Origin: Chthoniobacterales bacterium
Lineage (GTDB): Bacteria > Verrucomicrobiota > Verrucomicrobiia > Chthoniobacterales > UBA6821
Direction of reading: 5' to 3'
DNA: 45,128 nt
Assembly: GCA_026461395.1 (NCBI GenBank)
Contig: JAPJNA010000027.1
Coordinates: forward strand, 1 to 45,128
The position numbers and the translations under genes were made by a program. Below, one piece after another: positions 26,569 through 45,128 of the stretch (within the stretch, counting starts at the first letter, position 1; every line of letters starts with the position of its first letter). Below the pieces are notes generated by a model. The model made no database searches and was not told the DNA's origin. It saw only the letters and a list, made by a program, of their open reading frames with translations.

Positions 26569-27348
26569 ATGAAAAACTCACTCGCGGCATTTATCATTCT
26601 TGCTGGTAGCGTAGCCGCCTCTGCGGCTGTCTCGACTCCAGGAAATCTCGTTCTTGGTTTCCGTGCTGAAACTGGGACGACGGGAGAAAGCAACAACGTT
26701 GTTATCGATCTTGGAGCTCTTTCCAGCATCATTACTGACACACGCAATACATACAATCTCAGCGGCGCTAGCTCCATTCTCAGCACAACGTATGGAACTA
26801 ACTGGTTCAATCGTACGGATCTTTATTATGGCGTAATTGCTAATGATGCCTACGAGATCAATGGTGGAGATGATTACTACCAGTCATTCGCTTCCACTCG
26901 TCTCGCCAACAGTGGTTCTGTCACGCTTGATGCTATTTCCGTTTATACAGCTCAGCCTACGTTCCAGCAGTTTGCGTTGAATAATTCTTCAACAGCGCTT
27001 TCAAGTGGTACGATCAGTGGGGCCACTCGTGGTGGGGGCTTCCTCACCAGCGATTACCTTGTTCTCGATAGCGCCGACTCAGCATCATGGTCTACTCTCA
27101 GCGCTGCGGGTTGGGGAGGGCTTTTCACTGAATCGCAGGATAATCTGGTCACTTCCTACACATCATCAACGAGTGCTCTGGGAATTTATACGGCTGCTGG
27201 TGGTTTGAATGACTTCAATCAGACGATTCCAGCCGCTGTTTATATTCAGAGCGGTTATCTCGTGGTCGTTCCCGAACCTTCGACCTACATGCTTCTTGCT
27301 TTGTCTGGAGTTGCTCTTCTCTACATTGCTCGTCGAAAGAAGGCCTGA
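26569..27348 (+). CDS. PEP-CTERM protein, founder of the shared N-domain
   Basis: 259 residues with signal peptide MKNSLAAFIILAGSVAASAA. The mature start TPGNLVLGFRAE, NNVVIDLG, YNLSGASSILSTTYGTNWF and RTDLYYGV align residue by residue with the N-terminal part of the 1458-residue protein at 28075. The tail is VPEPSTYMLLALSGVALLYI with a KKA end, a PEP-CTERM signal. Function is unknown; secretion and sorting follow from the signals. A strong terminator ends it. Codon use is more AT-rich than the housekeeping genes. Confidence 0.88.
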   Translation: MKNSLAAFIILAGSVAASAAVSTPGNLVLGFRAETGTTGESNNVVIDLGALSSIITDTRNTYNLSGASSILSTTYGTNWFNRTDLYYGVIANDAYEINGGDDYYQSFASTRLANSGSVTLDAISVYTAQPTFQQFALNNSSTALSSGTISGATRGGGFLTSDYLVLDSADSASWSTLSAAGWGGLFTESQDNLVTSYTSSTSALGIYTAAGGLNDFNQTIPAAVYIQSGYLVVVPEPSTYMLLALSGVALLYIARRKKA

Positions 27349-27466: not shown

Positions 27467-28018
27467 ATGAAATCCTCCTTTATCAATCATTGGCTGGTGA
27501 GATTGTTACTCACGATAATGCTGCTGCTGACTTGCGTTCTTGCATATCTCATCTGTCAAGAAATACGTGACGTGTCCGTAATGGCTGACCACTCATCTTC
27601 TTCAAATGCGCAGGGGCTTCCTGAAAAGACTCACCTCACAACCAAGACTTCAGTTTCTCAAAATGTCTATGCTGAAATAAATGGGATACAGGGTTATGCC
27701 TCACAGGCGTCCCCCAAGGTGGGTAGCGAGGCATCCCTTGAAGTGAGCGCATCAGATCCTGTGGTCGAGGCCTCCGAGGATGCGCCTGATATTGCACCTC
27801 CTTTTCTTTATGAGATCAAACCCTCTAAAATGGCTCTGCTTGATCAGGATCAACAGCTTGCTGTTCAGAAGGCCTTTGAGTCTTACCTGGCATTCCAACA
27901 AGCAGGCGGGGGAAATACCGATTTGCGCGTGCTCAAGGAATCATCTGAAAAACTCAAGGAACAGCTTGCTGCCGAGATCGGTCCTATTGCGGTCCATGAT
28001 TTGATGCAAGGGGAGTGA
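27467..28018 (+). CDS. Membrane-anchored protein, unknown
   Basis: 183 residues. One hydrophobic segment (residues about 9-31, VRLLLTIMLLLTCVLAYLIC) anchors a Ser/Thr-rich, low-complexity middle and a helical, charged end (DQQLAVQKAFESYLAFQQ, then LKESSEKLKEQLAAEIG). No family recognised. It lies 56 bases before the large beta-repeat protein on the same strand and after a terminator, so it may belong to the same surface module. A secretion-helper role is only a guess from position. Confidence 0.65.
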   Translation: MKSSFINHWLVRLLLTIMLLLTCVLAYLICQEIRDVSVMADHSSSSNAQGLPEKTHLTTKTSVSQNVYAEINGIQGYASQASPKVGSEASLEVSASDPVVEASEDAPDIAPPFLYEIKPSKMALLDQDQQLAVQKAFESYLAFQQAGGGNTDLRVLKESSEKLKEQLAAEIGPIAVHDLMQGE

Positions 28019-28055
28019 TGTGACGAATCTGTAACGGGATTTCAGCGTTCAAGGT

Positions 28056-28074: not shown

Positions 28075-31000
28075 ATGCCCTACAAGTCGCTCTTGCGCTG
28101 CTTTTTCATACCTCTCCTGAATCTACGGAGGTTTTTCAGTGGCTTTCTTATTTTGGTAACCTTGTGTTCTTCTCCTGCTCTCTTGGCTGTGGCGGGAGAT
28201 ACTCCCGGAAACCTTTTGTTGTTCTTCCGTGAAACGGATTCCACAGCACCAATTGGTGCCAATGATAACATGGCTATCGATCTCGGATCTTTCCCGGCAA
28301 ATCAAACGGGTTTTCGATACGATTTCTCTGGCAACTCAATTATTTCGCGGACGTATGGAAATGATTGGTTCCAGCGGGAAACATTGTTCTGGGGCATTAT
28401 GGGATTTGTTCCTTACCCTGAAGAGACCGACGAAGGTCTCGCCAAAATGAAGCTGTTCATTTCGCGGGAATCATCATCCACAGTGTTGGGTCAGATAACT
28501 GGAGTCTCATTGTATAATCTGGCGCAACCGTGGCCTGCTCTTATAAATGAAATGATCTATGGTAGTGGTGGTACTGCGAATGTTTCCGGTGCTGACTTAT
28601 CCTATACGGTGTTTACGAAAGGTGAGAGCGCTTGGAGTGGCATGCAGGAGAACTCCTCCGGGGCCTTCAGCGGGTCCATTTCTTACACTGGCAATTCGGA
28701 TCATCAGATTACGATAAGCCGCGATCTGATTCTCTCACAGTACACGCCTGATCTTGTCGATTTCGGCAATGTTGCCATTTCTGCCGATCTGCTCTCGATA
28801 CGATTCACCAATGGAATTCTCTCTGCCACTGCCATCTCGGGTGGAGGAGGTTCTGGCGGTGCTTACTCTGGACCTTGGAACTGGACGGCGGGCTCGGGCA
28901 ACTGGGACGCTACGAACAACTGGACGAGCAATCAGGTAGCCTCTAACGGCTACGCCGCCTGGATCACAGGTGTTGCGGGCGGAGGGACGATCACGAACAA
29001 TGGTGTCTCAAGCCTCTCTAGCCTCACCTTCAGCAATGGTGCAGGATCCTTCACATTGACCGGCACCAATCCCGGCCAGACCCTGACAATCTCAAGCGGC
29101 ATCAATAACAACTCGAGTAATACCCAGACGATCGATCTCTCGATAGCCGGAGCAGGAGGTGTCACCCAATCAGGCTCAGGCACCACCGTGCTGGTCAAGA
29201 GCAACTCCTACGTCGGTGGTACGACCCTGAACAATGGAGCGGTGGTGATCGGTAATAACAACGCTCTCGGCTCTGGCGCGGTGACTGTCACGGGTGCCTC
29301 ATCCCTGATCGCGGGCGTGGCCAATCTCTCCACAACGAATGACATGGTGCTCAACGCTGCAACAACCATCAATACGGAGGCAAACCGCTGGACCAATGCT
29401 GGCACGCTCTCGGGATTGGGATCGCTGACCAAGACTGGGTCGGCGACTTTGACTCTTAGTGGGACGAGTGCGAGTTATTCTGGAGCCTCGACCATCAATG
29501 CCGGTGCGATGCAGGTTACTGGGAATCTTGGAACAGGAACCGTGACGGTGAGCAATGGGGCCTCTCTCTCCGGATCGGGAAGAGTCGGTGGTATCACAGT
29601 GGCCTCCGGCGGCGCAGTCATGGCTGGAAGCGATACGGCGATCGGAACCCTGACTGTGACAGGCAATGGGATCTGGAGTGGGGGGGGCATTTACAACTGG
29701 AAGATCTCCGATGCCTCAGAGAATGAGGGCGTCGGTTACGACTTGATCTCGATCGGAGGAGCGCTGGATCTCTCGGGAGTGACTTCACTCAACAAGTTCC
29801 AGATCAATCTCTGGTCCTTGGGGGGCAATGCCGCCAACTTTAATCAGGATATCGACGGGGCTTGGAAGATCGCCTCTTTCTCTTCGCTCAACGGTAGTTT
29901 CTCTACCAACCTCTTCTCGGTTAACCTTGGGGCCACCAATGGTACGGGAGGTTTCCCGAACGCCACGAACGGGACATTCTCCCTCTCCTCCTCGGTAGAT
30001 GCCTTATTCCTGCAATACAAGACGCGGGCCGCCACGGAGACATCAGGAATCTGGTCAGCTGGCTCGGGAAACCTGACCGGGATCACCAATGGTTCCCTGC
30101 TTCAGTTCACTGGAGTAGGGGGATCGGTCACCAATCAGTCCGTCACCGATCTGACCGGGATCTCTTACGGATCCTTGGCGGGAGGTTACACCCTCTCCGG
30201 AACGAATATCACCCTCTCCGGTAATGTGACGAATGCCTCTTCATCCCAGCAGAACATCTCCTCTAGGATTAACTTGGCCACCAACGCAGCCATCACGGCC
30301 CAGAACGGGGCTATGCAACTGGCAGGGGCCGTAGCGCTGGACTCCAATAACCTGACGATCTCCGGTGACCGACAGACCACGCTCGCAGGCGACATCGCGG
30401 GATCAGGGACTCTCATCAAGCAGGGAGCCGGCACTCTGGTTCTATCAGGGGTCTCTTCCAATGCCGGCGGTCTTGCTGTCGAGTCAGGTCGGGCGATCCT
30501 CTCAGGAGGGGATGACAGGCTCTCATCCAACGGGAGGCTCTCGGTGTCGAGTGATGCAGTCGTGGACCTCGGCACCAATAGCCAACGCTTCGTGGCGCTC
30601 TCAGGATCGGGGACCATCACGGGTGGAAGCGGTTCGATCACGTTCGCCCCATCGAATGCCATCTCCTATGCCGGAACAATCGGGGGGCAGAAAGCCGTCG
30701 TGCAGAACGGATCCGGTACCACCACCCTCACCGGTTCCAACAGCTATACGGGAGGAACCATTGTCTTCGCAGGGACTCTCGTCGCGGGATCCAGCAATGC
30801 CTTGGGTGCCAATCTCTCCCCGGTATCTGTGAGAGGTGGCACACTCGATCTGGGGGGGGGAACCCGGACAATGGGCTCGGTGACCCTCACAGCGGGTGAG
30901 ATCTCCAACGGATCCATCACTGCCAATCTCATGGCTTGCGTGGCATCGGGCCAGCAGGCCACGATCTCCGCCACGCTGGCGGGGAATAGGGGATTCTGGA

Positions 31001-32451
31001 AGTTGGGAGCGGGAACCCTGAACCTCCTTTCAGCGATGCCAACCGGAACGAATATCGTGATGTCTGGCGCCCTCAAAACATCCGGATCAGTGATGGGAGT
31101 CGCCAGCAATGCTCTCGGTAAAATCATCCTGGGAGGCACATCCAGTCCTGCTCTCTGGACGAACGAAGGGAATCTGACGCTGGCTACAAACGGAAAGACG
31201 ATCTTGGAGTTGAGGGATGCCGCCACACTCCGAACCGGTGATCTCACCCTCGCCGCAGCGAAATCTTCGCAGGGAACGCTCCTTCTCACCGGAACGGGAA
31301 CCAATGGTGGAACCACGATCGAGGTCGGTTCGGGAACGATCACCTTCGGCGCCGGTGCGGGGAAGATCGATTACAAGAAGTCATCCTCCTCCACCCTCTC
31401 CCAGGCACTCTCCGGCAAAGGGATGGTCACGGTCTCCGGCATGGGAACCCTGACCCTCGCCGGGAATAACTCCGGATTTGCCGGAACCAACTACCTCACC
31501 TCCGGAGGGATGGTGATCGGCGCCAACACCCTCAACGGGGGTGTGGCACTCGTTTCTGGTAAGAAAAGCACACTCACGCTCCAGCAGGGAGCCAGCCTCT
31601 CAAGCACCAATGCCCTGCATGCCGTTGGGGGCAAGCTGATTGACAATTCGGGCCTGGCGTTTACCAACTCGATCCGCTCCTCCAGAATCGTTACCAATGG
31701 AGCGCTACGCCCCGGAATCTTGCTTGCCACAGGAGGTACGCTTGAGAAGAGCTACACCGCCACCAACGATGTGACAAGGAATGTGGCGGGTTTCGGCGCG
31801 GGATATGGATCGGGTAAATCCTTCCAGATTCTCTCCGGTGCCGTCGCGGGCGCCTCGACACTCACGGCCCTGTCGGATGCCAATGGAAGGTTGGATCTCC
31901 ACGGAACGGGCAGCAATCCCTTCGTCATGGCGATGACCGATGCGAGCTTCACAGCCACAAGGAACCAGATCCAGTGGCTCTACACAAACAGTGCCACTCC
32001 GTATTGGACGAACACCATTGCGGGTAATATCCAAGGAAGTAACAAGACTGCAGCGATCAGCGGGATGAATGGACTCTCTTTTGCTGGGAGCTTCAATAGC
32101 TTCCTTCTCCAGACGAGTCTCAAGACGGCTGGGATTACGAGTGACCCAAGCGACACCCTTGTCGAACTGAATGATCTGGGGACTGACAGCATCGCCGGGT
32201 TGCTCAATAAAATCATGGGGGCGTACGGTTACGACAGCGCCACCAAGACGGCATGGGCTGTCATCAACCACAACAGCCTCTTCGATTCCCAGCCAGGAAT
32301 CGACACGGATCCCGGCCTTGCGCCTCTGGATATGGGAGCATCCTCAGTGACCACGCAGACCGTCCCGGAACCGGGAACCTGGGCCCTGATGATTATTGGA
32401 TCGGTGGCTCTGCTTTTCGCAATAAAGGCCAAAAACCGGAAGAAGATTTAA
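28075..32451 (+). CDS. Large autotransporter-type beta-strand repeat protein with PEP-CTERM
   Basis: 1458 residues. A long basic signal peptide (residues 1-40) precedes a domain homologous to the protein at 26569 (DTPGNLLLFFRETD, then MAIDLG, SGNSIISRTYGNDWFQRE). A glycine-rich linker near residue 255 leads to a W-rich start (GPWNWTAGSGNWDATNNWTS) and then beta-helix repeats of the autotransporter-associated type: NSYVGGTTLNNGAVVIG, SLTKTGSATLTLSG, GAGTLVLSG, NSYTGGTIVFAGTL, MGTLTLAGNN. The end is VPEPGTWALMIIGSVALLFA with a basic tail, so the protein is PEP-CTERM sorted and has no classical autotransporter barrel. It is a probable extracellular adhesin or matrix protein. GC content rises sharply at the repeat part (about 28840), consistent with a domain fusion. 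Confidence 0.9.
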   Translation: MPYKSLLRCFFIPLLNLRRFFSGFLILVTLCSSPALLAVAGDTPGNLLLFFRETDSTAPIGANDNMAIDLGSFPANQTGFRYDFSGNSIISRTYGNDWFQRETLFWGIMGFVPYPEETDEGLAKMKLFISRESSSTVLGQITGVSLYNLAQPWPALINEMIYGSGGTANVSGADLSYTVFTKGESAWSGMQENSSGAFSGSISYTGNSDHQITISRDLILSQYTPDLVDFGNVAISADLLSIRFTNGILSATAISGGGGSGGAYSGPWNWTAGSGNWDATNNWTSNQVASNGYAAWITGVAGGGTITNNGVSSLSSLTFSNGAGSFTLTGTNPGQTLTISSGINNNSSNTQTIDLSIAGAGGVTQSGSGTTVLVKSNSYVGGTTLNNGAVVIGNNNALGSGAVTVTGASSLIAGVANLSTTNDMVLNAATTINTEANRWTNAGTLSGLGSLTKTGSATLTLSGTSASYSGASTINAGAMQVTGNLGTGTVTVSNGASLSGSGRVGGITVASGGAVMAGSDTAIGTLTVTGNGIWSGGGIYNWKISDASENEGVGYDLISIGGALDLSGVTSLNKFQINLWSLGGNAANFNQDIDGAWKIASFSSLNGSFSTNLFSVNLGATNGTGGFPNATNGTFSLSSSVDALFLQYKTRAATETSGIWSAGSGNLTGITNGSLLQFTGVGGSVTNQSVTDLTGISYGSLAGGYTLSGTNITLSGNVTNASSSQQNISSRINLATNAAITAQNGAMQLAGAVALDSNNLTISGDRQTTLAGDIAGSGTLIKQGAGTLVLSGVSSNAGGLAVESGRAILSGGDDRLSSNGRLSVSSDAVVDLGTNSQRFVALSGSGTITGGSGSITFAPSNAISYAGTIGGQKAVVQNGSGTTTLTGSNSYTGGTIVFAGTLVAGSSNALGANLSPVSVRGGTLDLGGGTRTMGSVTLTAGEISNGSITANLMACVASGQQATISATLAGNRGFWKLGAGTLNLLSAMPTGTNIVMSGALKTSGSVMGVASNALGKIILGGTSSPALWTNEGNLTLATNGKTILELRDAATLRTGDLTLAAAKSSQGTLLLTGTGTNGGTTIEVGSGTITFGAGAGKIDYKKSSSSTLSQALSGKGMVTVSGMGTLTLAGNNSGFAGTNYLTSGGMVIGANTLNGGVALVSGKKSTLTLQQGASLSSTNALHAVGGKLIDNSGLAFTNSIRSSRIVTNGALRPGILLATGGTLEKSYTATNDVTRNVAGFGAGYGSGKSFQILSGAVAGASTLTALSDANGRLDLHGTGSNPFVMAMTDASFTATRNQIQWLYTNSATPYWTNTIAGNIQGSNKTAAISGMNGLSFAGSFNSFLLQTSLKTAGITSDPSDTLVELNDLGTDSIAGLLNKIMGAYGYDSATKTAWAVINHNSLFDSQPGIDTDPGLAPLDMGASSVTTQTVPEPGTWALMIIGSVALLFAIKAKNRKKI

Positions 32452-33049
32452 ACCACCAAGAGATATCCAAGGGAATCCGATTATTCACCACTAAGGGGGA
32501 TCCAAGTGGGATCCAAGTTAGAGAATCCAAGTGGGGGATTAGGGGGAGCAAGTGGCATGGGCTCCGAGTATCGGAGCTGGCTTGTCGAATGAGTGCCTCT
32601 GCAAGCGAGCTTGCGAGAGCACATCATCTCGACAAACCTCACCGCAGTACCTTCGGCACTGCGTCCATGCCAAGCCCTCGACGCGCGACTTCCCTACTCA
32701 GTTCCTTTTCGGGAAAACTTTGCCGGTCCTTGGCTGTTTCCTTGGTGGTAAATTCCTTCCATGCCCCTTTAGCGTAGCTACCTACTAGCTACTGGGCACC
32801 CACTTTCTCACCTTCGCACCTTCCCACTTTATACTGCCCGCTACTTTTTGCTCTCGACGCTCGACCTTCGTCCCTCGACTTCTCCGGTCTCTCCCCAAAC
32901 TTCCATATTCATACTTCTATATTCCGCGCCCCAGGCGCTCCCTTCGCCGGCACTTGGTGGTAGAAAATGCAGCCTGCAGATCTCCTTTTCTTTTATGTCG
33001 GAATTGTAACACTTGAAGCCATCTTTTTAGGGTAGTCTTTCAGACCAGA
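32452..33049. other. Spacer with repeats and hairpins before the giant exoprotein
   Basis: ATCCAAG-type direct repeats at 32463-32535; GCTCCGA-gta-TCGGAGC at 32561-32577; a long imperfect hairpin at 32581-32636; heptad tracts near 32795-32830 and 32855-32925 (CTCGACG, CTCGACC, TTCGTCC; AACTTCC, ATATTCA); and GCGCC-cca-GGCGC at 32926-32938. TTGTAAC at 33004-33010 may belong to the promoter. No credible gene. Confidence 0.65.
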
Positions 33050-36000
33050 ATGAGGATTCTTCACCAGTTCACCGAAGGGCTTCTTCGCTTGTTGCGAAGA
33101 GGGCCTTATGCTGTTGAAAACGTATCGTATCACATAAGCGCCAAGTCTCGCCTGAGATGCCCTCCCCCCCTGGTCAGATTCCTGGCTCTGATGCAGGCGG
33201 TTCTGGTTGTTTTCTCGGGAAGCCCTCCTCTCCTTGCCATCACGATGTCGGGGATCAGGGCCGGTACAGCGACTCCCGGATCCGGCGGACAAGGATCCTA
33301 CTCCAATCTCCAGAACGCCGGTGCCGCCTCGGCGGCCCTAACAGCCGCGATGGCTCAGGGGAACCTGAAGAAGGCCAACGACATTATCACGGCGATGCGT
33401 CAGGTGCAGGCTGAAGCCAGAAACGCAGCAACGGGCAAACTTCCAAACGGATTATCCATTCCTAATGGACTGAAGCCCGGTGGGTTGGAGGTTTACAATC
33501 CCAGCGGACAAGTCACTGCCAGCGGCAATGTGCCGATCACTTGGAGCGGTGTTTCCTCCTTGGCTGAGATAAGAGCCGCTGCCTCCGACTCCGCAGCGGC
33601 GACGGTGAACGTCACCCAGGGGCAGCAGAGTGCCTATCTCTACTGGAATAAGTTCAATGTCGGCCCTCAGACGACCCTCAACTTCCATCTCGCCGAGAAC
33701 CTCAAAGCGAATCCCGGTCAGAATATCGCCTTTAACAAGGTGATGAGCCCCTCATCCGCCTCCCACATTTTCGGCAAGATCAAAGCCGATGGTCAGGTCT
33801 ACATCCTCAACCAGAACGGGATCCTCTTCCACAACGGCTCTGCCGTGAACACCCGATCCCTCGTCGCCTCCACCCTTCCGATCAATGAAAACCTTGCAGG
33901 CTCCGCGACTAAGGCGGGACGGGGTATAGCCAATAACCCCGACTATCAGTTCCTCTTTTCGGCTCTGGAGGTTCCTGCAGGCAAGAATGGCCCTACCGAG
34001 AAATTCACACCGCAGGTATTTAACTCGGGAAAGGTTGGAAATGTTGTTGTTGAAAGGGGTGCCACCATCACCTCCCCGAAGGATGACAATAACTCAGGAG
34101 GTCTTGTAGCTCTCGTCGGTCCGGGGGTGAGTAACGAGGGAACGATCAGCACGGCTAACGGACAGACAATCCTTGCGGCAGGCCTTCAGGTAGGCTTGTT
34201 CCCTCACGCTTCTTCGGATCCAAGTCTTCGCGGTCTGGATGTCTACATTGGAAAGGTTGATGACAAATCGATCAGTACCGAGGACTTGTCAGGCGGCAAG
34301 GGCGCGGGCACAGCGGTTAATTCAGGCGTGATTGATGTGCCCCAAGGAAGTGTCACCATGGCTGGAAAGACCATTCTCCAGAAAGGGGCCATCGATGGGA
34401 CGACGTCCGTGTCATTAAACGGACGCGTGGATCTCCTGGCCAACTATGATTCAGAGATCAACACAGCGTATTTGCCGAATAACTCTCAGGGACCGCCCGT
34501 GTTCTTCACCAAGACGGGTCTTGTTGAGAGTGGGCCGGGAAGTGTCATCCGGATTCTGCCAGAGTGGGGGAGTGCGGAAAAAGTGATCGGAGATACCCTT
34601 GCCCTTAACTCCGCGGTTTCCATTTTGGGACAAAATGTCCGCTTTGGTCAGGGAGCTCTTCTTCTTGCTCCCGGCGCCGTGAAAACCTCCGGTGCCCTCT
34701 CACAGTTTTCATCGTTAGACGGAAGTCGTTCGTTCCTGAGTGACGGGGTGACCGTCGATGCGGGCAACTGGGTCAAGACATCGGCCACCACGGTGCGATT
34801 AGTCCACGATGGAGGGCAAATCTTTCTGGATGAGAATTCCGTCATCGATGTTGCCGGTTCGACGGGTGTGGAGGTCAGCAGTTCAGTGAATTTCATCACA
34901 CTCCAACTTCGTGGCTCCGAACTGGCGAGCAGTCCCCTGCAACGGGAAAGCGTCATCAGGGGCAAAAACATCACGATCGATATCCGCAGGAATGGCACCT
35001 ACGAAGGGCGCTACTGGGCAGGGACCCCGCTGGGAGATGCAACGGGCTACGTTGGTCTGATCGAGAAGACGGTCGGGCCTCTCACCATTGCAGGTGGAAG
35101 CGTTTCCCTGACAGCGGGTGACTCCGTTGTCATGAGAAACGGATCTCAAGTGAATGTCTCCGGAGGATGGATGAGATATATGGGCGGTAGCTTCAGCACC
35201 TCCAAGCTCACGACTTCAAGAGGTGAGATCATCGATATCTCCCAAGCCACACCCGATCTTATTTACAGTGGGATTATCAAGGATTCGCCGAAGTTTTACG
35301 ATCCCGCCTACTACCGTGGAGGTGACGGAGGGACATTGGCCATTCAGTCTGCAGCCATGGCGCTCGATGGCAGAGCGCAGGGAGCCACGGTGGTTGGTTT
35401 CCGGCAGTTGAGTCCGCTCTCCTCCATGGAGAGCACACTTCCGGCTGCTTCTTCATTATCTCTTGCAATATTCTCGGAGAAGTTCCTCAGCGACCTCAAT
35501 GCGGTGGTTCGCCAATCACTCTACCAACCCGTAATCCGTATCGCGGCTGCGCCTGACTACGCCGCGCCACGCCCTGAGTTCCTCTCATCCCTTCCAACCG
35601 AGCGCACTTCCGGGATCACTCTGGATCGGGGGCTTTTTGGAGAGTCTGGATTCGGGGAGTTGTCCGTTGATAATAAAAACGGGAGTTTTTTGCTGGATCG
35701 AGGTGTTTCGATGTACCTAGGTGGTGGAGGCAGGCTCGATGTGAGTGCTGGTACGATCGATATCGGCGGGGGGATTTACGCCCCAGGTGGATTGATGAAA
35801 CTGAAGTCCTCTTCCCTGACGTATGCTGACCTGCTGTTGTTGGATTCCACCACGTTGCTGGACGGGCCTGTTACCGATCTCTGGACGCTGAAACAGACTG
35901 GTGAAACGGTCATGGAAGTGGGCAGGACTCCGGACGGCATGATCCTTCTTCAGGGACAAGCGCCCGTCACTCAAGATCAGTTAACGGCTCGGAATACCGG

Positions 36001-39000
36001 CAGGATTATACTCGGAGAAAGTGCAGTCTTGGACACGTCCGGCCTTCTGACTGACTTTTATTTATCCCGAGGATCCGCTCCCGTGATCATGAACGGGGGA
36101 GGTGTCATGTTAAATGCCTATCGGACAGATCTCCGTCCAGGTAGTGTAATCAATGTCTCGGGCGGGGCCTCCCTACTTCCGGGAAAAACGAGTTATGGGA
36201 AGGCTGGATCCATCTCGATCAGCGGAGGGTATGATCCCGACAAAGACTCGGTTTTCTCCACCGGAGAGCTTCGCTTCAACGGTGCATTGAAGGGGTTCTC
36301 CGGTATAGGTCAGTCAGGAGGAAGCCTCTCCCTTGCGGGTAGGGCCTTTCAGATCGGCGGGATCGCTCCAACCGGCGTCATCGGCCTGAGTCCTTCCTTC
36401 TTCAACCAAGGAGGCTTCTCCTCCTTCACGATTCAGGGGCAGGGCCTTCCCACTGCATCTCCCGATAACTGGATTCCTGCCGTGGCCGTGGCTCCAGGCA
36501 CAATCCTCTCTCCCAAGCCGATCTCTCTGATTCTTTCCTCCTCGGGCGGGAGGCGAACGCTGGTGCCTTTTTCCATGCCGGCAAGCCTGGCTCCTAATGT
36601 CTCGCTGACTTTTCGAGGCGCTCCCGTCCGTGAAGTCAAGACCCAACGAGCTATGGATAATGGCAATGACATGGTTGTTCGTTCCGACATCATGATTGGC
36701 AAGGATGCGATGCTAGAGGCAAAACCAATGCTGGTTTCCTCATCCCTTGAGCATGAGGCCGGATCGATCGTGCTGGATGCTCAAACCGTATCCCTTGAAG
36801 GAACGCTCTCGGCACCGGGTGGATCAATCGTTATTTCTGCGTCAAAAAACACCGATAGGTATGCACGCACTAGTTTGGATAACTACGCGGATGCCCAGTT
36901 TACACTGATTTTAGGAGACCGCTCCTCGATTTCGGCTTCCGGGATTCCCCTCCTGACGCCGGACCCCTTGGGTATCCGTGGAACAGTGGGTGTGGTTCTT
37001 CCCGGCGGAGAGGTAGAATTAAGCGGAAATATCCTGGCACTCCCCGGTTCCTCGATCTCTGCATCGGGAGCGAGCGCCGATTTACGTTATTTCCCCAACC
37101 AGCTCGGAGCCAGCAAGGGAGGCGTTCGCACGATCCGTGTCGACTCAGCGGGGGGAAGTATCTCGTTGCATGGAGGCCAGATGCTTTATTCCGCCGCAAT
37201 GCTAAACGCCAAGTCAGGGGGGAGTTCGGCGAATGGTGGAAAACTCCAGATTGATTCTTCCTTTTACTTCAGAGACCGTATTGATGAGGGAAGCGGGGGA
37301 ACGGCGGGATTCGACCGCTATAGCGTGAGAATCCAGGGATCAGAAGCGGATCTCTTCTCGAGTATTGATCAACTTGGTGTTTCAAAGGTGGCGAGTAATC
37401 CACGGAAAAAAGTCACTGATGGCGGCGCTTATCTTTCGCTTGCCGCGATTCAGTTGGGTGGTTTTGACCGGGTTGCCCTCGACGGGAATGTGGCGTTCGA
37501 GGGACTCGGGGTGGTGGATGCCACCCTCCGGATTCCCGGAATCCTGAAAGTAGCATCTGGAGGTCTCCTGAGGTCGGACGGGGGAATTACCCTGGAAGCC
37601 GATTCGGTCTCCCTGGGACAGCCTCTGAGTGTTCCTCTGATTGGTATTGACCGCGCAAACACGACCATCATTTCTACAAGCTATGGATTGACAGCAGATC
37701 AATATATCGCACTGACTGCTGGCCCAGGCTCTGTGACGGTTAAGGCGGATCAAATCGATATCGGCAATCTCTCACTCCAGAACGCCTCCAAACTGCGTCT
37801 TCTCGCACAGAATGGTTCTGTCCGTGGGGATGGTACGCTGGATCTTGCCGGCGATCTCCTGATCGAGGCGGGAGCGGTTTATCCCGCTTCCGGGACCACA
37901 TTCCAGATATTCGCCTATGACTCGGGAGTGGGAGGATCGCCGGGATCAATCAAGATCAGTCAGACGGGAGGGGTCAGCGTTTCGCCTCTTTCAGCAGCAG
38001 GATCCCTCGCGCTCTATGCGTCAAGCATCGATCAGGGAGGGACTCTCCTTGCCCCTTTTGGTAAGATTACGCTCGGTTGGGATGGCGCTGGAGCGATGCC
38101 GAAGGATCCTCTCAGCGGTGCTGGCTTCTCTTTACGTGCTCAAGCGGTTCCCGAAACGGACTCCATCCGCCTGCGGGCCGTTTCTGTCACTTCCGTTGCG
38201 GGCAGGGATCCCGTCTCGGGCCGCGAATGGATCATCCCCTACGGTACCTCTGCGGATGGTGGAAGTTGGATCGCTCCGGGAGGAATCGATATCACCTCCT
38301 CCGGTCTTCCGGGCAAGTCTGTGTCGCTGGCCTCCCGCGGATCGATAGTCATGGATTCAGGTTCGATGATTGATCTCCGGGGAGGTGGTCAGGCTACCGC
38401 CTACCAGTGGATTCCCGGGATTGGAGGAAAGAACAATCTTCTTTCCGAGGCATCGCCATCCTACGTGTCCGGGAGTTCCTATCTGCCGGGAGAGATCGTT
38501 CGCTACGAGGGCAGGCTCTGGTCCGCCAATGTCAGGATCGATCCGAAAAAAAATGCACCCTCTCCCTCAGAGGGCATCTATTGGACAAGGATTCCGGAAC
38601 GCTATGCGATCATTCCGGGATATTCAGGATCGCCTGATCCCACGGGCTACGGAGGATTGCCAGAGACAGGTCAAATGATCCGTCTCTCCTCCGGAATCCC
38701 GGGACTCTCAGCCGGTGATTACACACTCCTTCCAGCCAGTTATGCGTCCCAGCCCGGCGCTTATCTCCTCTCGGTACCGGAGTCACTGCCTTCATCACCC
38801 ACTCCCATGTCGATGCCTGATGGAACTTTCCTGAATTACGGGGTTAGGTTTGATGCCTATGGTTCCTCCTCAAGCATTGCCCAACTTGGCAACTACTTCA
38901 CAGTCACTCCTCCGGCGGCACTGTCAAAAAGGGTCGAATTCAAAAATCTTTCTGCCGGTGAATTTTTCAATAATCAAGGAGCCAGTGATCCGGCACATGC

Positions 39001-42000
39001 CGCCGATCTGACCTTGGTAGCTGCCAGGTCAATGGATCTCCGTTCCAACATCAGGTCATCGGGTAGAACCGAAGGCCTCGATGCCCGGATCGGCATCTCC
39101 TCACCTCTAGATTTCAGGATCGTTGCGAGTAGCTCGGGGCGTACTCCGGGATCCGGAGAAATCCTGCTAGATGCGGGCGTCCTCAATTCCTGGAATGCCG
39201 GGGGTCTCTTAATCGGTGGAGTCCGATCTAATCCTGATAACGAAGGACCCGTGAAACTTTCCGTCACTTCTGCATCAGTTATTATGGAGGATGCGGATCT
39301 GATGGTGCAGGATTTGATCTTTGCGGCTACCGGTAAGGTTGAATTGGAATCCGGTGCCTCGATTGTCAGCACGGCAACGACCAGCCCCCTGAATGACCAA
39401 AGTCTTTTCCTCTCTGGGAATGGAGCATTGCTCAGGGTTAGCGGAGATCCCGAAATCAGCATTTCCAGAGGAAGAGTTGGAAGTATTGCCGACCCGGCCA
39501 GTCTACTTATCGGGAATAATAGCTCACTGCGTGGTGGTTCGATCCTTCTGGATTCGAGTTCACTCATGAATCTGGCCGACACGGCAACCTTCACCGCAGG
39601 ATCCGTGAGCATGGCGGCTGGTTCGGTGGCGATAGTCGGAAGGGCCTCGGATCCCATTCCCAGGGATCAGTCCGATGACGTCAGCTTGATCATCGGCGGA
39701 CGACTACTTGATTCCTTGGAGAAGGCTACAGCGCTGGCAATTACGAGTTACTCGACCCTCTCTCTCTATGGATCCGATTCCATCGCAGGAGACTCGCTCC
39801 GCACGCTGAAACTCAATGCCTCCGCCATCCGGGGCTTCCTCCCCGAGGATGGAATCTTCGGCTTCAGGGCGGAGACGATCCTTCTTGGGAATAGTGCGGG
39901 AGAGGCCGCTTCTAAGACTGCCATGGATTTACCTTCCGGAAGCCTAAGTGGCTGGTCAGGTTTTAAGGTGCTTGAATTTGAAGCATCCCAGTTCGTTCTT
40001 GGAAAAAACAATCTCCGACTCGACAACTTCACTCAGGTGAATATCACGGCCGCAAAAGGGATCCAGCTCTCCGCCTCGGGTGGTTTGGATGCTGGAACGG
40101 CTAGCAATCTGTATCACCCCTCGGAGGGTGAAAATGCCGACATCATTACCCTTGTCTCGGGAGTCACTCCGTCTGATCTTGTCGTGAAGGATCGTGATGG
40201 GGCCACGCTCTCGGGAGATGTTCTGCTGGATCTGCCTGCCGGTAGCAGTGTCCTGATCCCACAACTAACGCAACTGAGCATCTCGACACCTTTTGTCTCC
40301 GGTGCCTCTGGAGTATCCTCCGGGATACGTGCGTCCGGTGGGCTTGTGTTTGACGGATCGGGTTACTCCGCTACACCGAGTGACTCCGGCCTTGGAGTAG
40401 CCTTGGCATTACAGGGCTCTTCCGTGGAAATTCTCAACACGCGCTTCGACCTGACTGCTGGCTCACTCTCTGCAACGGCAAGATCCGGCGATATCCTGGT
40501 AGGCTCGGGAGCTTTCATCTCGGTACGTGGCGGTGACATCAAGGTTCAGGACACGCGTGTCACCACGGATGCAGGGAAGGTTTCCCTCGCTTCGTCCCTT
40601 GGAAAAATTGAGATCGCCGCTGGATCAGCTATTGATCTGAGTGCGCCCTCCGGCAAATCACTCGGAACCTTTTCGTTAAGTGCTCCGGGCTTGGGCGATT
40701 CGGACAACGAAATTCTCCCCGGCGGAGTGGCCATCATGCCGGGAGCGAAGTTCATAACTGGGGGAACAGGAGGTGCTTCGCTAAATCTGGATCTTGGATC
40801 CTTGGAATCGTTTTCCAGTCTGCGATTCGGCCTGAACCGGGAAGGGAATCCGGCAAGCTTTTCCGAGGCTGGCTTCACGGGGCGGGTGACAGTCAGGGTG
40901 TGCGGTGGGGATGTCGTGCTGGATGACCTCGTTCAGGCACGTCAGTTCAGTCTCTCCGCAGATCGTGGATCCATCACCGTGGCACCCTACGCAGGAGTGA
41001 ATGCCTCTGGCCAAACCGGAGGGACGATCAGCATCGTGGCCTCCGGGAGTCTCTCCCTAGAGCCCGGCGCCTTTCTTAGCGTTCAAGGTGAAAAGTATGA
41101 CACTTCAGGGAAAGGCGGAAGTATCCTCCTCTCCGCCGGAGCAGCTGTTGACGGGCAGATCGATCAATCAGCGATGCTGGGTCTCACTCTCGGTTCGGAG
41201 ATCGATCTGGGGGTAGATCAGATTAGCAATGGGGTTGATCAATTCGGTGGCACACTCCATCTCAGAGCCCCGGTCATCGAATCCGTTGATGGCCTGGGGA
41301 TCCAGATCTCGATGCTGGACTCCGCTATCGTGGGGGCATCAAGCGTTGCAGTGGAGGGATACCGTCTCTATGAGTTGGGCGGCACAGTGGCCGACCTGAA
41401 TAGTGCTAAACCGCTCAAGGTCGACGGAGGGGACTACGATGGGGATCAGACAGTTCTTGAGTTAGCCAAGCAGGATGCCCTTCGGTTCGGTAGTCAAATG
41501 GATGCCATTCTGGAGCGTCTCATTCCCGAGGAGACGCCGAACACGGAATTATGGAAGCCATTCACGGGAATCCCTATCCTCAACCTCACGGCTGGGATTG
41601 AAATCATCAACCGTGAGGGCTCCATCAAGCTCTCCTCCGACTGGGATCTTGCCGATGGCGTGGCATTGGGTGTGCCGCAATACCGTTACGGAAGCCGCAA
41701 GGCCCCTGGATTCCTGACTCTACGGGCCGCCAGCGATCTCGTCCTTGAGGCGACCTTATCAGATGGATTCACTGCAAATCCTGTTCCGAAAGAGAGTGGG
41801 GCGCGCTCGGGGTCGGATAATATGGCGATCCTGCTCGATCGGAATCCTGATTTGCCATTGAATTTCCAGTCTTGGAGCTATGATCTCACGGCAGGGGCTG
41901 ATCTCGCTTCCGCCTCTACCGTCATGACCAGTCCTCAGCAGGGTAGGGGTGACGTCAAACTCGGCAAGGTGACTTCAAAGTCGAACATTCTCCCCGTTGG

Positions 42001-45000
42001 AAATTCAACGACTGGCCTCGGGTCGTTCGGGGCGGATAATCTGACCACGTCGGCATTATCGGCAGAGGAGGGAAATTATCAGGTCATTCGGACCGGCAGC
42101 GGGAACATCACGGTGAATGCTGCGGGTGACGTGCGGTTCCTGAATCAATTTGCCTCCATCTACACAGCCGGCACAAAACTGGATGACCAGAGTCTTGGCG
42201 GCCGCTTCGACCTGCCTAATGTGAAATCCCTCACCGCAGGAACAATACCGGAAGATGCCTTGGGAAAGCCCCAGGAATCCCTGCAATATATGGCCCAGTT
42301 CTCCGCTTCAGGCGGCAATGTCTCGCTGCAGGCAGGGAGGAATATCGCGCAACTCCAGAAACGACTTTTCTACACGGACTCCGGCAAGAAGGTTTCGCCT
42401 CTACAACCCTACGAATATGATGAAGAATTGACAGCTGACAGTTCATGGCAATTGCCGACCAGTTGGCTGATGCGACGTGGTGGCTCATCGAAAGGACAAT
42501 GGAATAGCCGAGAGGGATTCTTCCTCAAGGCCGATGGATCGTATTCAGAGGACATCCAATCCGAAATCATGAGTACGGCTTGGTGGGTGAATTTCGCCAA
42601 CTACTTGGGAGGAATTGCCACGCTCGGAGGAGGTAATGTGTCGGTCGAGGCCGGTGGGACTGTTGCAAATGTCGCTATTTCCCTGCCTACCCAGATGCGT
42701 GCGACGTCTCGCAAGATGATAGGTAGAGATGGGAACGAGATGCTTGTTGAGGCTCTATCCTCGGAAAGCGTTGTCTATCAGACGGGTGGAGGAAACCTGA
42801 TTCTCCGAACTGGCAAGAACCTCGATGCGGGAAGCATCTATTTGGAACGCGGAGATGCCTCGATCCGAGTGAATGGGGACGTGGTAAGCAACGAAACCCG
42901 CAATGTCTGGTCTGAGCTGCTTTACTTCCTGAGTAACCCAACGGCAAGCCGAACCCCTTATGCAAGTTCCCCATCACGATATTGGGCGCCGACTGCGTTC
43001 TTTCAGGGAGTCGGGGCAATAGATCTTCAAGCAGGTGGCAGGATCGACTCGCTGGGGATGCCGGGGAGTGTCTTCTCACTGCCGCAGGGATACTCCAATG
43101 ATATGGAGTACAGGAATTATTTCACAACGTTTGATGCTGCGATTTCCCAGGTTGCCAGTCCCTCGTTCCGTGTGACTGCATTGGGGGGCGATATCACGCT
43201 GACCACTAAGATTGACGGCCTTCCGACCTACCAGGCCATGGCGCGTGCCGCCTCGCTTGGGAAAAAGGAGTCTTCCCCCTACGCTGGTGCCTATCAACCC
43301 TGGATCCGAGTCGTGGAGTCATCGCCCGGAACCCCGGAACTGGGGGGGTTGATGGGATTGACCTCCCCAAAACTGGAAATCATTGCTCCTGCGGGCGATG
43401 TGAATTTTGCGGGTGATCTGACGCTCTATCCGGCTGCCTATGGAAATTTGATCGTAGCGGCTGGTGGAAATGTCGTCGGCCTCAGTCGTCAGGGCGATCC
43501 TAATGGATCGACTGCGACCGATTGGACCTTTGCTACGATTAACCTCTCTGATGCCGATGCATCGAAGTTGCCGACTCAACTGGCTCCCGTAGGTCAAGCC
43601 GCAGAGGGAGGAGCCTATACCTCGACAAGGGCAGAGTATCTTCTCTCTGCACTCCTGGGGCTTGTGGAAAGCGGGAGTTATTCCGGTCAAAATTCCTCCC
43701 AGAGCCTCCAGTTGGCAAGGCATGCCAAAGATCTCCATCGTGGGGATAGTAGCCCATTAGTGATTTCTTCGGGTCAGGATGTATCGGGAATTCAGCTTTT
43801 CAGCCCTAAACTTACCCGGGTCACGAGTCACGGGGACATCCGCGACGTCTCCTTCTATCTGCAACACAACTCCGCAGACGATATCAGCGTGGTTCGGGCG
43901 TCTGGAAATATCATTCCTTATGATGTCACCACCGAATCTCAACAAAAGGCCAGGGCTACGATCAATGACGAAAAGCCGAAGGCCAGGATCGTGCAAAGCG
44001 GTGATATCCAGATCGCTGGTCCTGGTGCGCTTATGCTCTTGGCTGGTGGGAATATCGATCTGGGTACAGCACCGGATCGTGCTTGGTCCACCGATCCCTA
44101 TGATTCCACCATCTGGAATGGCATCACGAGCATAGGAAATGCCCGCAATCCGTCTCTGCCTTTTGAGGGTGCTGATATTACTGTTACTGCTGGTGCCACT
44201 CTTGCTGCGGAATCGGCATCTGGAGGAACCAGTGGCTTCCTTGAATTTGCCAGGACTTTGCTAAATGGCCCTAGAGGGCAAGAGTACCTTGTCGACCTTG
44301 CCAAATCATTCAGGTATTCGGGATCGAGAATTAGCGATTTCTTCACTTACTCCAAAGACGGAGTGGAAGAAATCAGGATCACCAAGGATGATGTGCTGAC
44401 GAGTACGGGCCTTTTCAATGAGGAGGAGCGTTTAGAATTGAATCTGAATCTGCTTTTCCTAGCGATTAAGAATTCGGCAAAAGACTATTATGATGAAACA
44501 TCTCCTAACTACAAAACCTACCGAGAGGGAAAAGATGCCATTACGAAATTCTTTGCGTCAACAGGGCCGGGTGATGTGCTCACAAGAACACGAGATATTC
44601 GCACAAAGAACGGTGGCAATATCAGTATTCTGGCCCCGGGCGGAGGTGTGACTCTCGATAGCGTCGATCCCTATTCTAAAGACCCTCCCTTCGGAATCAT
44701 CACCGCGTACGGGGGAGGGATTAATATCCTTGCCAAGGAAAGCGTAGGAATAGGCATCGGCCGAATCTTCACACTTCGTGGTGGCGACATTACGATCTGG
44801 TCAGATGTCTCGATTGCGGCCGGAGCCTCAGCCAAGACGGTGGCATCTGCTCCTCCCACTCGTGTCTTGATCGATCCCCAGAGTGCTAGTGTATTGAGTG
44901 ATCTCGCCAGTTTGTCCACCGGTGGCGGTATTGGAACTCTTCAAGTCATCAAGGGGGTGCCGATTGCGGACGTAACCCTTGTCGCGCCCCTCGTCGACGC

Positions 45001-45128
45001 GGGTGATGCTGGCATTCGATCAAGTGGCAATCTGCTCGTGGCTGCTGAGAAAATTCTTAATGCAGACAATATTATGGTTGCTGGACTGAGCGTGGGAGTT
45101 CCTCCTCCTGCAGTGGCCGCTTCTGCTC
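33050..45128 (+). CDS. Giant filamentous-haemagglutinin (TpsA)-like exoprotein, C-terminus cut by window edge
   Basis: An open frame of more than 4020 codons with no stop to the right edge, sampled at many points. The long N-terminus has an extended signal peptide with its hydrophobic core at about 41-64 (LVRFLALMQAVLVVFSG). Residues about 187-280 match the haemagglutination activity (two-partner secretion) domain: YLYWNKFNVGPQTTLNFH, HIFGKIKADGQVYILNQN, GILFHNGSAVNTRSLVAST. The middle is a beta-helix of Gly/Ser-rich repeats. Near 1804-1850 lies a carbohydrate-binding-like insert, followed by AGDYTLLPASYASQPGAYLL, a phrase usual in this family. From about residue 2985 the sequence resembles DUF3739 (NITVNAAGDVRFLNQFASIY, then VAPLVDAGDAGIRSSGNL). 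It is probably exported by a TpsB partner outside the window. Role: adhesion or matrix, by inference. Confidence 0.92.
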   Translation, partial: MRILHQFTEGLLRLLRRGPYAVENVSYHISAKSRLRCPPPLVRFLALMQAVLVVFSGSPPLLAITMSGIRAGTATPGSGGQGSYSNLQNAGAASAALTAAMAQGNLKKANDIITAMRQVQAEARNAATGKLPNGLSIPNGLKPGGLEVYNPSGQVTASGNVPITWSGVSSLAEIRAAASDSAAATVNVTQGQQSAYLYWNKFNVGPQTTLNFHLAENLKANPGQNIAFNKVMSPSSASHIFGKIKADGQVYILNQNGILFHNGSAVNTRSLVASTLPINENLAGSATKAGRGIANNPDYQFLFSALEVPAGKNGPTEKFTPQVFNSGKVGNVVVERGATITSPKDDNNSGGLVALVGPGVSNEGTISTANGQTILAAGLQVGLFPHASSDPSLRGLDVYIGKVDDKSISTEDLSGGKGAGTAVNSGVIDVPQGSVTMAGKTILQKGAIDGTTSVSLNGRVDLLANYDSEINTAYLPNNSQGPPVFFTKTGLVESGPGSVIRILPEWGSAEKVIGDTLALNSAVSILGQNVRFGQGALLLAPGAVKTSGALSQFSSLDGSRSFLSDGVTVDAGNWVKTSATTVRLVHDGGQIFLDENSVIDVAGSTGVEVSSSVNFITLQLRGSELASSPLQRESVIRGKNITIDIRRNGTYEGRYWAGTPLGDATGYVGLIEKTVGPLTIAGGSVSLTAGDSVVMRNGSQVNVSGGWMRYMGGSFSTSKLTTSRGEIIDISQATPDLIYSGIIKDSPKFYDPAYYRGGDGGTLAIQSAAMALDGRAQGATVVGFRQLSPLSSMESTLPAASSLSLAIFSEKFLSDLNAVVRQSLYQPVIRIAAAPDYAAPRPEFLSSLPTERTSGITLDRGLFGESGFGELSVDNKNGSFLLDRGVSMYLGGGGRLDVSAGTIDIGGGIYAPGGLMKLKSSSLTYADLLLLDSTTLLDGPVTDLWTLKQTGETVMEVGRTPDGMILLQGQAPVTQDQLTARNTGRIILGESAVLDTSGLLTDFYLSRGSAPVIMNGGGVMLNAYRTDLRPGSVINVSGGASLLPGKTSYGKAGSISISGGYDPDKDSVFSTGELRFNGALKGFSGIGQSGGSLSLAGRAFQIGGIAPTGVIGLSPSFFNQGGFSSFTIQGQGLPTASPDNWIPAVAVAPGTILSPKPISLILSSSGGRRTLVPFSMPASLAPNVSLTFRGAPVREVKTQRAMDNGNDMVVRSDIMIGKDAMLEAKPMLVSSSLEHEAGSIVLDAQTVSLEGTLSAPGGSIVISASKNTDRYARTSLDNYADAQFTLILGDRSSISASGIPLLTPDPLGIRGTVGVVLPGGEVELSGNILALPGSSISASGASADLRYFPNQLGASKGGVRTIRVDSAGGSISLHGGQMLYSAAMLNAKSGGSSANGGKLQIDSSFYFRDRIDEGSGGTAGFDRYSVRIQGSEADLFSSIDQLGVSKVASNPRKKVTDGGAYLSLAAIQLGGFDRVALDGNVAFEGLGVVDATLRIPGILKVASGGLLRSDGGITLEADSVSLGQPLSVPLIGIDRANTTIISTSYGLTADQYIALTAGPGSVTVKADQIDIGNLSLQNASKLRLLAQNGSVRGDGTLDLAGDLLIEAGAVYPASGTTFQIFAYDSGVGGSPGSIKISQTGGVSVSPLSAAGSLALYASSIDQGGTLLAPFGKITLGWDGAGAMPKDPLSGAGFSLRAQAVPETDSIRLRAVSVTSVAGRDPVSGREWIIPYGTSADGGSWIAPGGIDITSSGLPGKSVSLASRGSIVMDSGSMIDLRGGGQATAYQWIPGIGGKNNLLSEASPSYVSGSSYLPGEIVRYEGRLWSANVRIDPKKNAPSPSEGIYWTRIPERYAIIPGYSGSPDPTGYGGLPETGQMIRLSSGIPGLSAGDYTLLPASYASQPGAYLLSVPESLPSSPTPMSMPDGTFLNYGVRFDAYGSSSSIAQLGNYFTVTPPAALSKRVEFKNLSAGEFFNNQGASDPAHAADLTLVAARSMDLRSNIRSSGRTEGLDARIGISSPLDFRIVASSSGRTPGSGEILLDAGVLNSWNAGGLLIGGVRSNPDNEGPVKLSVTSASVIMEDADLMVQDLIFAATGKVELESGASIVSTATTSPLNDQSLFLSGNGALLRVSGDPEISISRGRVGSIADPASLLIGNNSSLRGGSILLDSSSLMNLADTATFTAGSVSMAAGSVAIVGRASDPIPRDQSDDVSLIIGGRLLDSLEKATALAITSYSTLSLYGSDSIAGDSLRTLKLNASAIRGFLPEDGIFGFRAETILLGNSAGEAASKTAMDLPSGSLSGWSGFKVLEFEASQFVLGKNNLRLDNFTQVNITAAKGIQLSASGGLDAGTASNLYHPSEGENADIITLVSGVTPSDLVVKDRDGATLSGDVLLDLPAGSSVLIPQLTQLSISTPFVSGASGVSSGIRASGGLVFDGSGYSATPSDSGLGVALALQGSSVEILNTRFDLTAGSLSATARSGDILVGSGAFISVRGGDIKVQDTRVTTDAGKVSLASSLGKIEIAAGSAIDLSAPSGKSLGTFSLSAPGLGDSDNEILPGGVAIMPGAKFITGGTGGASLNLDLGSLESFSSLRFGLNREGNPASFSEAGFTGRVTVRVCGGDVVLDDLVQARQFSLSADRGSITVAPYAGVNASGQTGGTISIVASGSLSLEPGAFLSVQGEKYDTSGKGGSILLSAGAAVDGQIDQSAMLGLTLGSEIDLGVDQISNGVDQFGGTLHLRAPVIESVDGLGIQISMLDSAIVGASSVAVEGYRLYELGGTVADLNSAKPLKVDGGDYDGDQTVLELAKQDALRFGSQMDAILERLIPEETPNTELWKPFTGIPILNLTAGIEIINREGSIKLSSDWDLADGVALGVPQYRYGSRKAPGFLTLRAASDLVLEATLSDGFTANPVPKESGARSGSDNMAILLDRNPDLPLNFQSWSYDLTAGADLASASTVMTSPQQGRGDVKLGKVTSKSNILPVGNSTTGLGSFGADNLTTSALSAEEGNYQVIRTGSGNITVNAAGDVRFLNQFASIYTAGTKLDDQSLGGRFDLPNVKSLTAGTIPEDALGKPQESLQYMAQFSASGGNVSLQAGRNIAQLQKRLFYTDSGKKVSPLQPYEYDEELTADSSWQLPTSWLMRRGGSSKGQWNSREGFFLKADGSYSEDIQSEIMSTAWWVNFANYLGGIATLGGGNVSVEAGGTVANVAISLPTQMRATSRKMIGRDGNEMLVEALSSESVVYQTGGGNLILRTGKNLDAGSIYLERGDASIRVNGDVVSNETRNVWSELLYFLSNPTASRTPYASSPSRYWAPTAFFQGVGAIDLQAGGRIDSLGMPGSVFSLPQGYSNDMEYRNYFTTFDAAISQVASPSFRVTALGGDITLTTKIDGLPTYQAMARAASLGKKESSPYAGAYQPWIRVVESSPGTPELGGLMGLTSPKLEIIAPAGDVNFAGDLTLYPAAYGNLIVAAGGNVVGLSRQGDPNGSTATDWTFATINLSDADASKLPTQLAPVGQAAEGGAYTSTRAEYLLSALLGLVESGSYSGQNSSQSLQLARHAKDLHRGDSSPLVISSGQDVSGIQLFSPKLTRVTSHGDIRDVSFYLQHNSADDISVVRASGNIIPYDVTTESQQKARATINDEKPKARIVQSGDIQIAGPGALMLLAGGNIDLGTAPDRAWSTDPYDSTIWNGITSIGNARNPSLPFEGADITVTAGATLAAESASGGTSGFLEFARTLLNGPRGQEYLVDLAKSFRYSGSRISDFFTYSKDGVEEIRITKDDVLTSTGLFNEEERLELNLNLLFLAIKNSAKDYYDETSPNYKTYREGKDAITKFFASTGPGDVLTRTRDIRTKNGGNISILAPGGGVTLDSVDPYSKDPPFGIITAYGGGINILAKESVGIGIGRIFTLRGGDITIWSDVSIAAGASAKTVASAPPTRVLIDPQSASVLSDLASLSTGGGIGTLQVIKGVPIADVTLVAPLVDAGDAGIRSSGNLLVAAEKILNADNIMVAGLSVGVPPPAVAASA

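Follow-up and report, generated by a model that had tools for sequence, protein, structure and literature searches.

A giant TpsA-type exoprotein gene in a Pdt-like, putatively phosphate-controlled two-partner secretion island of a Chthoniobacterales bacterium

Results

The giant tpsA frame and its neighbors

The window, the whole 45,128-nucleotide stretch that was analyzed, is the entire contig C80 of a Chthoniobacterales genome (G000) that comprises 80 contigs and 2.03 Mb and is 95.16% complete. The genome probably belongs to the Spartobacteria, judging by a named relative at 40% identity; a closer named relative carries a Proteobacteria label and was taken for a mislabelled bin. The following features lie in its right-hand part:

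24104..24120, + strand: PhoB-box-like direct repeat TGTTACGAACTTGTTAC, exact, upstream of the PEP-CTERM/PstS-fold cluster
24333..25133, + strand: 266-residue PEP-CTERM protein (Pfam/NCBIfam)
25178..26485, + strand: PstS-fold protein (AlphaFold, Foldseek, VIA-align, family alignment), homologues in many islands
26569..27348, + strand: 259-residue PEP-CTERM protein (Pfam), related to the N-terminus of the 1458-residue protein
27467..28018, + strand: 183-residue protein of no known family, homologue at the same place in G003
28019..28035, + strand: PhoB-box-like direct repeat TGTGACGAATCTGTAAC, exact, 39 bases before the gene of the 1458-residue protein
28075..32451, + strand: 1458-residue PATR beta-repeat protein with a marginal PEP-CTERM end (Pfam), homologues upstream of tpsA in G004, G014 and G009
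32994..33010, + strand: degenerate, weak PhoB-box-like site with 2 mismatches, 39 bases before tpsA
33050..45127, + strand: TpsA-type exoprotein, ATG start, 4026 codons seen, 3' end lost at the contig end
33587..34183, + strand: TPS secretion domain, residues 180-378 (PF05860, TIGR01901)
44780..45103, + strand: DUF3739, residues 3911-4018 (Pfam)

From the ATG at 33050 a single open frame of 4026 codons runs to base 45127 and is still open where the contig ends. The sequence-only reading of this DNA had claimed more than 4020 codons in one frame, a two-partner secretion (TPS) domain near the start and a TpsA-like identity, and all three points were borne out: Pfam places the TPS domain at residues 180-378 (PF05860, E 5.3e-14, 53.2 bits against a cut-off of 33.5), the NCBIfam family adhes_NPXG (TIGR01901) matches at residues 198-276, and DUF3739 occupies residues 3911-4018 (E 1e-23). 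The further claim that DUF3739-like sequence extends to the end held for the last ~110 residues and for no more of the frame. No other Pfam domain was found in the window TpsA; ESPR gave no Pfam match there and is present in the Aquabacterium relative, and a hydrophobic stretch was read from the sequence near residues 42-64. By its domains the frame is a TpsA-type exoprotein of a TPS (type Vb) system.

Given that frames of the same kind occur in relatives, mostly of ~3,750-4,150 codons, and that dN/dS against the nearest of them (G003; 72% identity over 3237 aligned codons, no stop) is only ~0.05-0.16 in four full blocks, the giant frame did not arise by chance. A frameshift or pseudogene, the first of which the earlier reading had allowed for, was ruled out by the dN/dS values and the intact frames of the relatives, and no frameshift was seen in the sequence itself. 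On these comparisons the frame is a real, conserved and nearly whole gene, with ~47-89 residues predicted from the relatives' tails (71 in the nearest relative) to be missing past the contig edge.

Upstream of tpsA, the PEP-CTERM score of the 1458-residue protein (20.6 bits) falls just below the Pfam cut-off of 20.7, and both the 259- and 266-residue proteins score above it. The placement of tpsA and the 1458-residue protein in one island, as first proposed, agrees with the synteny in G004, G014 and G009 and with the Pho-like box that precedes the PATR gene both in the window and in G003, where the window's gene order upstream of tpsA is repeated, including both Pho-like boxes.

Apart from this, the N-terminus of the 1458-residue protein (28075-28530) is ~33% identical over ~140 residues to the PEP-CTERM protein at 26569-27348, as if the large PATR protein had been derived from the small one by insertion of beta repeats. 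A formylglycine-generating-enzyme-like protein with a PEP-CTERM signal of its own is encoded at window positions 794-1888.

A window protein with the PstS fold

The protein encoded at 25178-26485 matched no Pfam or NCBIfam family, those of PstS included. Its AlphaFold model (mean pLDDT 78.7) retrieved phosphate-binding proteins in Foldseek (E 3.6e-11), and VIA-align gave a Z of 25.3 with an rmsd of 2.8 over 258 residues, the top 38 rows being phosphate-binding or DING proteins throughout. By this model the protein has the fold of periplasmic phosphate-binding proteins (PstS); given the absence of a family match in the sequence, we named it PstS-fold rather than PstS. Near the exoproteins of Methylosinus and Methylomagnum lie PBP_like_2 substrate-binding proteins.

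The tpsB operon lies on separate contigs

The sequence-only reading had proposed looking past the right edge of the window for a stop codon and a TpsB gene. The stop is not reached, as the contig ends, and TpsB, whose absence from the genome was to count against that reading, is present: the one above-cut-off match to the ShlB family in the genome is on contig C75. There the order is TpsB (POTRA_2, ShlB), a 610-residue DUF2341/LamG/MotA_ExbB fusion, ExbD and the start of TonB. The TonB gene, which carries a TonB_2 domain, spans C75 and C29, whose ends share 20 bases; behind it on C29 come a porin (838 aa), a 228-aa protein and a PPIase, the families of these three being assigned from their homologues in G014. 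Pfam identifies the porin as Porin_5, without a plug, and the LamG/DUF2341 part of the ExbB fusion is presumably periplasmic.

No overlap was found between the ends of C80 and C75, and their junction was drawn from synteny. Given that C75:506-1021 and 1444-2832 match, at 93-96%, the sequence that directly follows tpsA in G004, C75 was placed beside C80, and tpsA and tpsB would thus be adjacent in this genome.

The island in relatives and in other phyla

In G004 and G014 the whole arrangement is found in one stretch: PstS-fold, PEP-CTERM, PATR and small protein, TpsA, a second TpsA, and then the operon in the order TpsB, LamG-ExbB, ExbD, TonB, porin, unknown, PPIase. In G012 TpsA is immediately upstream of TpsB, and in G014 the tpsA copies are separated by a type II secretion (T2SS) set (GspD, E, F, K and a weak J). 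In most of the loci read, though not in Methylomagnum, the gene right after tonB is of the porin type.

A survey of 58 genomes from the order found DUF3739 in 30, full-length LamG-ExbB in 31 and a strong TpsB in 32. DUF3739 and LamG-ExbB occurred together in 29 (Fisher p 6e-13, uncorrected for kinship); the pairing breaks down in G012, which is 76% complete and has no full ExbB, and in G031 and G015, which have ExbB but no DUF3739. Beyond the phylum, the same operon is carried by Methylosinus and Klebsiella plasmids (pOB3b1 of Methylosinus trichosporium OB3b encodes a DUF3739 exoprotein), most of it is found in Aquabacterium, and Methylomagnum has its parts in two nearby groups; sigma-factor and FecR-like genes lie beside the proteobacterial relatives of the island. 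Five plasmids, for which the plasmid records alone were covered, carry DUF3739 and have no full-length LamG-ExbB on the same record.

Phosphate-box-like repeats

We searched for the pattern TGTNAC-N5-TGTNAC, which has the 11-base period of the PhoB box, with the reversed pattern as control. In this genome there were 7 matches against 1 for the control, and three of the 7 fall in the island, at 24104, at 28019 and at C75:2802, the last of these before tpsB. Across 16 genomes of the genus the pattern matched 111 times against 9 for the control, 14 of the 111 being second-strand readings of one place, so that 97 distinct places are involved.

Counted within 350 bases before a gene, with genes having less than 200 bases upstream left out, boxes preceded tpsB in 7/17 cases exactly and in 14/17 at one mismatch or fewer (control 0 and 1), tpsA in 3/23 and 7/23 (control 0 and 0), and the PstS-fold gene in 3/16 and 4/16 (control 0 and 0); before the operon-internal exbB there were none (0/16). 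Outside the island, a box lies 72 bases before a PHO4 phosphate transporter gene in this genome and another before PHO4 in G002, and one precedes a PstS-type gene in G008. What is new here is the presence of such boxes ahead of the PEP-CTERM cluster, of the gene for the 1458-residue protein and of tpsB, as well as, outside the island, ahead of pstS and of a phosphate transporter gene.

The boxes on C12, C22 and C77 of this genome had no convincing target gene. Many genes behind the relatives' boxes were also without an evident phosphate role, for example glycogen-debranching-like and DNA-polymerase-X-like genes (by eye), among 20 box regions that were chosen by core sequence rather than at random and in which few downstream genes were Pfam-scanned. 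We regard control of the island by phosphate starvation as probable, with a PhoB-like protein as the likely ligand of the boxes.

A conserved motif in the TpsA tail

The complete TpsA tails of the relatives continue after DUF3739 with an Ala/Pro/Asn-rich linker, the motif P-S-x-x-x-[VI]-[ED]-[VI]-[LMIV]-G-[YF]-G and a variable end. The motif (PSxxxVEVLGYG) was present in 24/24 Chthoniobacterales tails (one with A for P) and also in Klebsiella and Methylosinus. Nine of 10 further proteobacterial plasmid records carry it in forms such as TVRVLGFG, SVQVEGFG and TVEVIGYG, one with GNG for GFG; in the remaining record the reading frame diverges beyond LPSVFTVRV. The beta-proteobacterial tails have R or Q at the acidic residue, the Methylomagnum tail reads VDVVGFG, and the Aquabacterium tail has a degenerate form. 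In an AlphaFold model the tail was disordered, with pLDDT <50 from residue 255 of 330.

The motif resembles a TonB box in sequence. TonB boxes pair with TonB as a beta strand, with local structure outweighing side chains (PMC11658791), and the TonB box of a SusC protein is VDEVVV (PMC7782687). The C-termini of several TpsA proteins are described as remaining in the periplasm (PMC5422565), and the tail of this TpsA would lie there too.

Receptors with a Plug domain number 0 or 1 per genome in the genus, with 11/16 genomes having one; such receptors are missing from G005 and G015, each 95% complete, which do possess the TPS-linked ExbB. In G000, G002, G004 and G014 the single Plug gene is within ~2 kb of another ExbB-like match, and no plug-bearing receptor was noticed in the island operon. 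With so few receptors the island's Ton complex has no obvious client, and we infer that the TpsA tail is a candidate for that role.

The only Plug match of this genome, on contig C22, adjoins a separate small ExbB-like match (31716-32015 and 33686-33967).

Discussion

A verrucomicrobial form of the Pdt locus

In Pseudomonas aeruginosa the PUMA3 regulon comprises pdtA, phdA, pdtB, exbB2, exbD2, tonB4, a putative porin, an unknown gene, YbjN and a PpiC-type PPIase, and its genes (including PA0696..PA0699, under VreI/PhoB control) lie beside the Hxc T2SS and LapA (PMC2729926, PMC7035377). PhoB-bound Pho boxes have been described at the promoters of pdtA and of phdA/pdtB-exbB2D2-tonB4 (PMC4971064), PdtA ranks with the most strongly enriched proteins when phosphate is limiting (PMC9769906), and the TonB system of the regulon is called uncharacterized (PMC7035377).

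Compared by published gene order rather than by sequence, the island shares with this locus a giant TpsA and the order TpsB-ExbB-ExbD-TonB-porin-unknown-PPIase. It also shares Pho boxes ahead of both the exoprotein part and the tpsB operon, although the window tpsA's own box is degenerate, together with nearby phosphate-type binding proteins and, in G014, a T2SS between the tpsA copies. On the other hand, the island is verrucomicrobial and includes PEP-CTERM and PATR proteins, and has a PstS-fold protein instead of LapA; no YbjN gene was seen in those verrucomicrobial loci that were read, and none like VreA, VreI or VreR was noticed among the window genes scanned with Pfam. We are therefore highly confident that the window and its genome hold a verrucomicrobial island of the Pdt type of TPS systems, a known kind of locus in what appears to be a new form.

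The TPS domain of TpsA and the POTRA/ShlB-type TpsB are shared with FHA/FhaC, HMW1/HMW1B and HxuA/HxuB, from which the island differs in its DUF3739 end, TonB-box-like tail and dedicated Ton complex. With classic Ton systems and their receptors it shares the MotA_ExbB, ExbD and TonB_2 domains, but its ExbB is fused to LamG/DUF2341 and no plug receptor was noticed in the operon. We found no literature that names DUF3739 and none on two-partner secretion with ExbD, or with PEP-CTERM, in Verrucomicrobi, and the accessible parts of the literature on DUF2341 with ExbB yielded no TPS link. The PstS-fold window protein, the conserved, disordered, TonB-box-like TpsA tail and the count of 0-1 TonB-dependent receptors are also new here.

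A possible motor for the exoprotein

Taken as a whole, the likely reading is that the window holds the exoprotein end of a Pdt-type TPS island that is switched on by phosphate starvation and has a motor at work on the tail. A PhoB-like regulator on the 11-base direct repeats would turn on the PEP-CTERM/PstS-fold cluster, the PATR protein and tpsA, and through a separate box the operon tpsB - LamG/DUF2341-exbB - exbD - tonB - porin - coiled coil - PPIase. TpsA, of ~4,100 residues, would pass through Sec, be kept unfolded in the periplasm with help from the PPIase, and be threaded N-first through TpsB to fold outside as a long solenoid. This would form a surface structure together with the secreted PstS-fold and PEP-CTERM proteins, for which a role in phosphate scavenging or adhesion may be envisaged. 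The flexible C-terminal tail would remain in the periplasm, where the dedicated TonB would grip its TonB-box-like strand and the ExbB-ExbD motor would pull, hold or release the exoprotein.

The motor step itself we put forward tentatively, as a possibility weaker than the reading that contains it. In its fuller form, a proton-driven ExbB-ExbD-TonB complex with a lectin-like periplasmic head might pull on the tail to finish, anchor, release or signal, an idea to which we attach slightly less weight still. A review holds that type V translocation has no energy source and describes FHA secretion in vitro into FhaC proteoliposomes (PMC5422565), both of which count against a motor. P. aeruginosa transposon mutants in tpsA, tpsB, the tonB homologue and PA0696 had wild-type virulence in zebrafish embryos (PMC2729926), so that no phenotype there speaks for motor coupling. 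The R or Q in the beta-proteobacterial motif, the degenerate Aquabacterium tail, the degenerate box of the window tpsA, the C80-C75 junction drawn from synteny and the plasmids without LamG-ExbB also weigh against the proposed mechanism.

About as credible as the motor is that TpsA and TpsB form an ordinary adhesin system, with ExbB, ExbD, TonB and the porin serving a co-regulated uptake of phosphate esters or complexes and the porin as the TonB client. The porin-type gene right after tonB in most loci, the conserved stretch of its own in the porin N-terminal segments, and the direction in which the PstS-fold protein and Pho boxes point, namely phosphate acquisition, would all fit, and TPS generally needs no motor (PMC5422565). 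Less easily accommodated are the identification of the porin as Porin_5 rather than a plug-bearing receptor, the conservation of the tail motif across phyla within an otherwise variable, disordered tail, and the full-length LamG-ExbB that accompanies DUF3739 in 29/30 genomes.

Somewhat unlikely, in our estimate, is that the conserved tail offers a strand to the POTRA domains of TpsB, or acts as an anchor, rather than being a ligand of TonB. In HMW1 and HxuA, TpsB keeps the C-terminus in the periplasm (PMC5422565), and any edge strand could serve as partner for a hydrophobic beta-strand motif; yet the disulfide loop of HMW1 (PMC5422565) was not seen here, and V-E-V-L-G-Y-G resembles TonB boxes such as the SusC VDEVVV.

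The sequence-only reading had envisaged an outer matrix of TpsA and the PEP-CTERM beta-repeat protein built by two export routes; the phosphate link, the PstS-fold partner and the dedicated Ton complex had no place in it. Its neighbors proved syntenic in several genomes, and Pho-like boxes lie along this stretch, but for the PEP-CTERM route no match to exosortase (PF09721) was found in this 95.16%-complete genome, and of the island loci compared, only G004, G014 and G009 also have a PATR protein near tpsA; as a structural matrix the pair therefore seems improbable. An exosortase is found in 14/16 genomes of the genus, and one in G000 may lie in the missing part of the assembly; several PEP-CTERM proteins are present in G000 despite the lack of a match.

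Contact-dependent, CdiA-like toxin delivery, which a very large TpsA plus TpsB might suggest, is hardly credible, since Pfam gives only TPS and DUF3739 and the relatives' tails (the window's own is cut off) are short and conserved, with no variable C-terminal toxin.

Should the motor reading be right, TonB would have a substrate outside the plug-type receptors and the colicins, and the rule of energy-free type V secretion would have an exception. What pulls or pushes the chain through TpsB is named as an unanswered question in the review (PMC5422565), and with a conserved motor in the operon and a conserved candidate grip on the substrate, the question of the driving force can be put to the test by removing genes. 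From the boxes, the PstS-fold companion and the recurrence of the operon in distant phyla, Pdt-type systems would seem to serve environmental bacteria in general as surface systems for phosphate starvation, and not to be the virulence peculiarity of one species.

Sequence mosaic around the tpsA-tpsB gap

Compared with G004, ExbD is 100% and LamG-ExbB 94% identical (C75 4707-6978), with TpsB at 62% and TpsA at 39%. This pattern suggests mosaic evolution, by exchange of the motor cassette or by fast change of the exoprotein. At C75 1508-2660, between tpsA and tpsB, lie two features named by eye, a nucleotidyltransferase-like gene and a toxin-antitoxin pair of VapBC-like type; their DNA is 93% identical to G004, and the genes next to them are far more divergent. 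An intergenic repeat of ~160 bases is dispersed around the island, at window positions 32592-32743 and at C75 105-264 and 1213-1373, and may be the cause of the assembly break.
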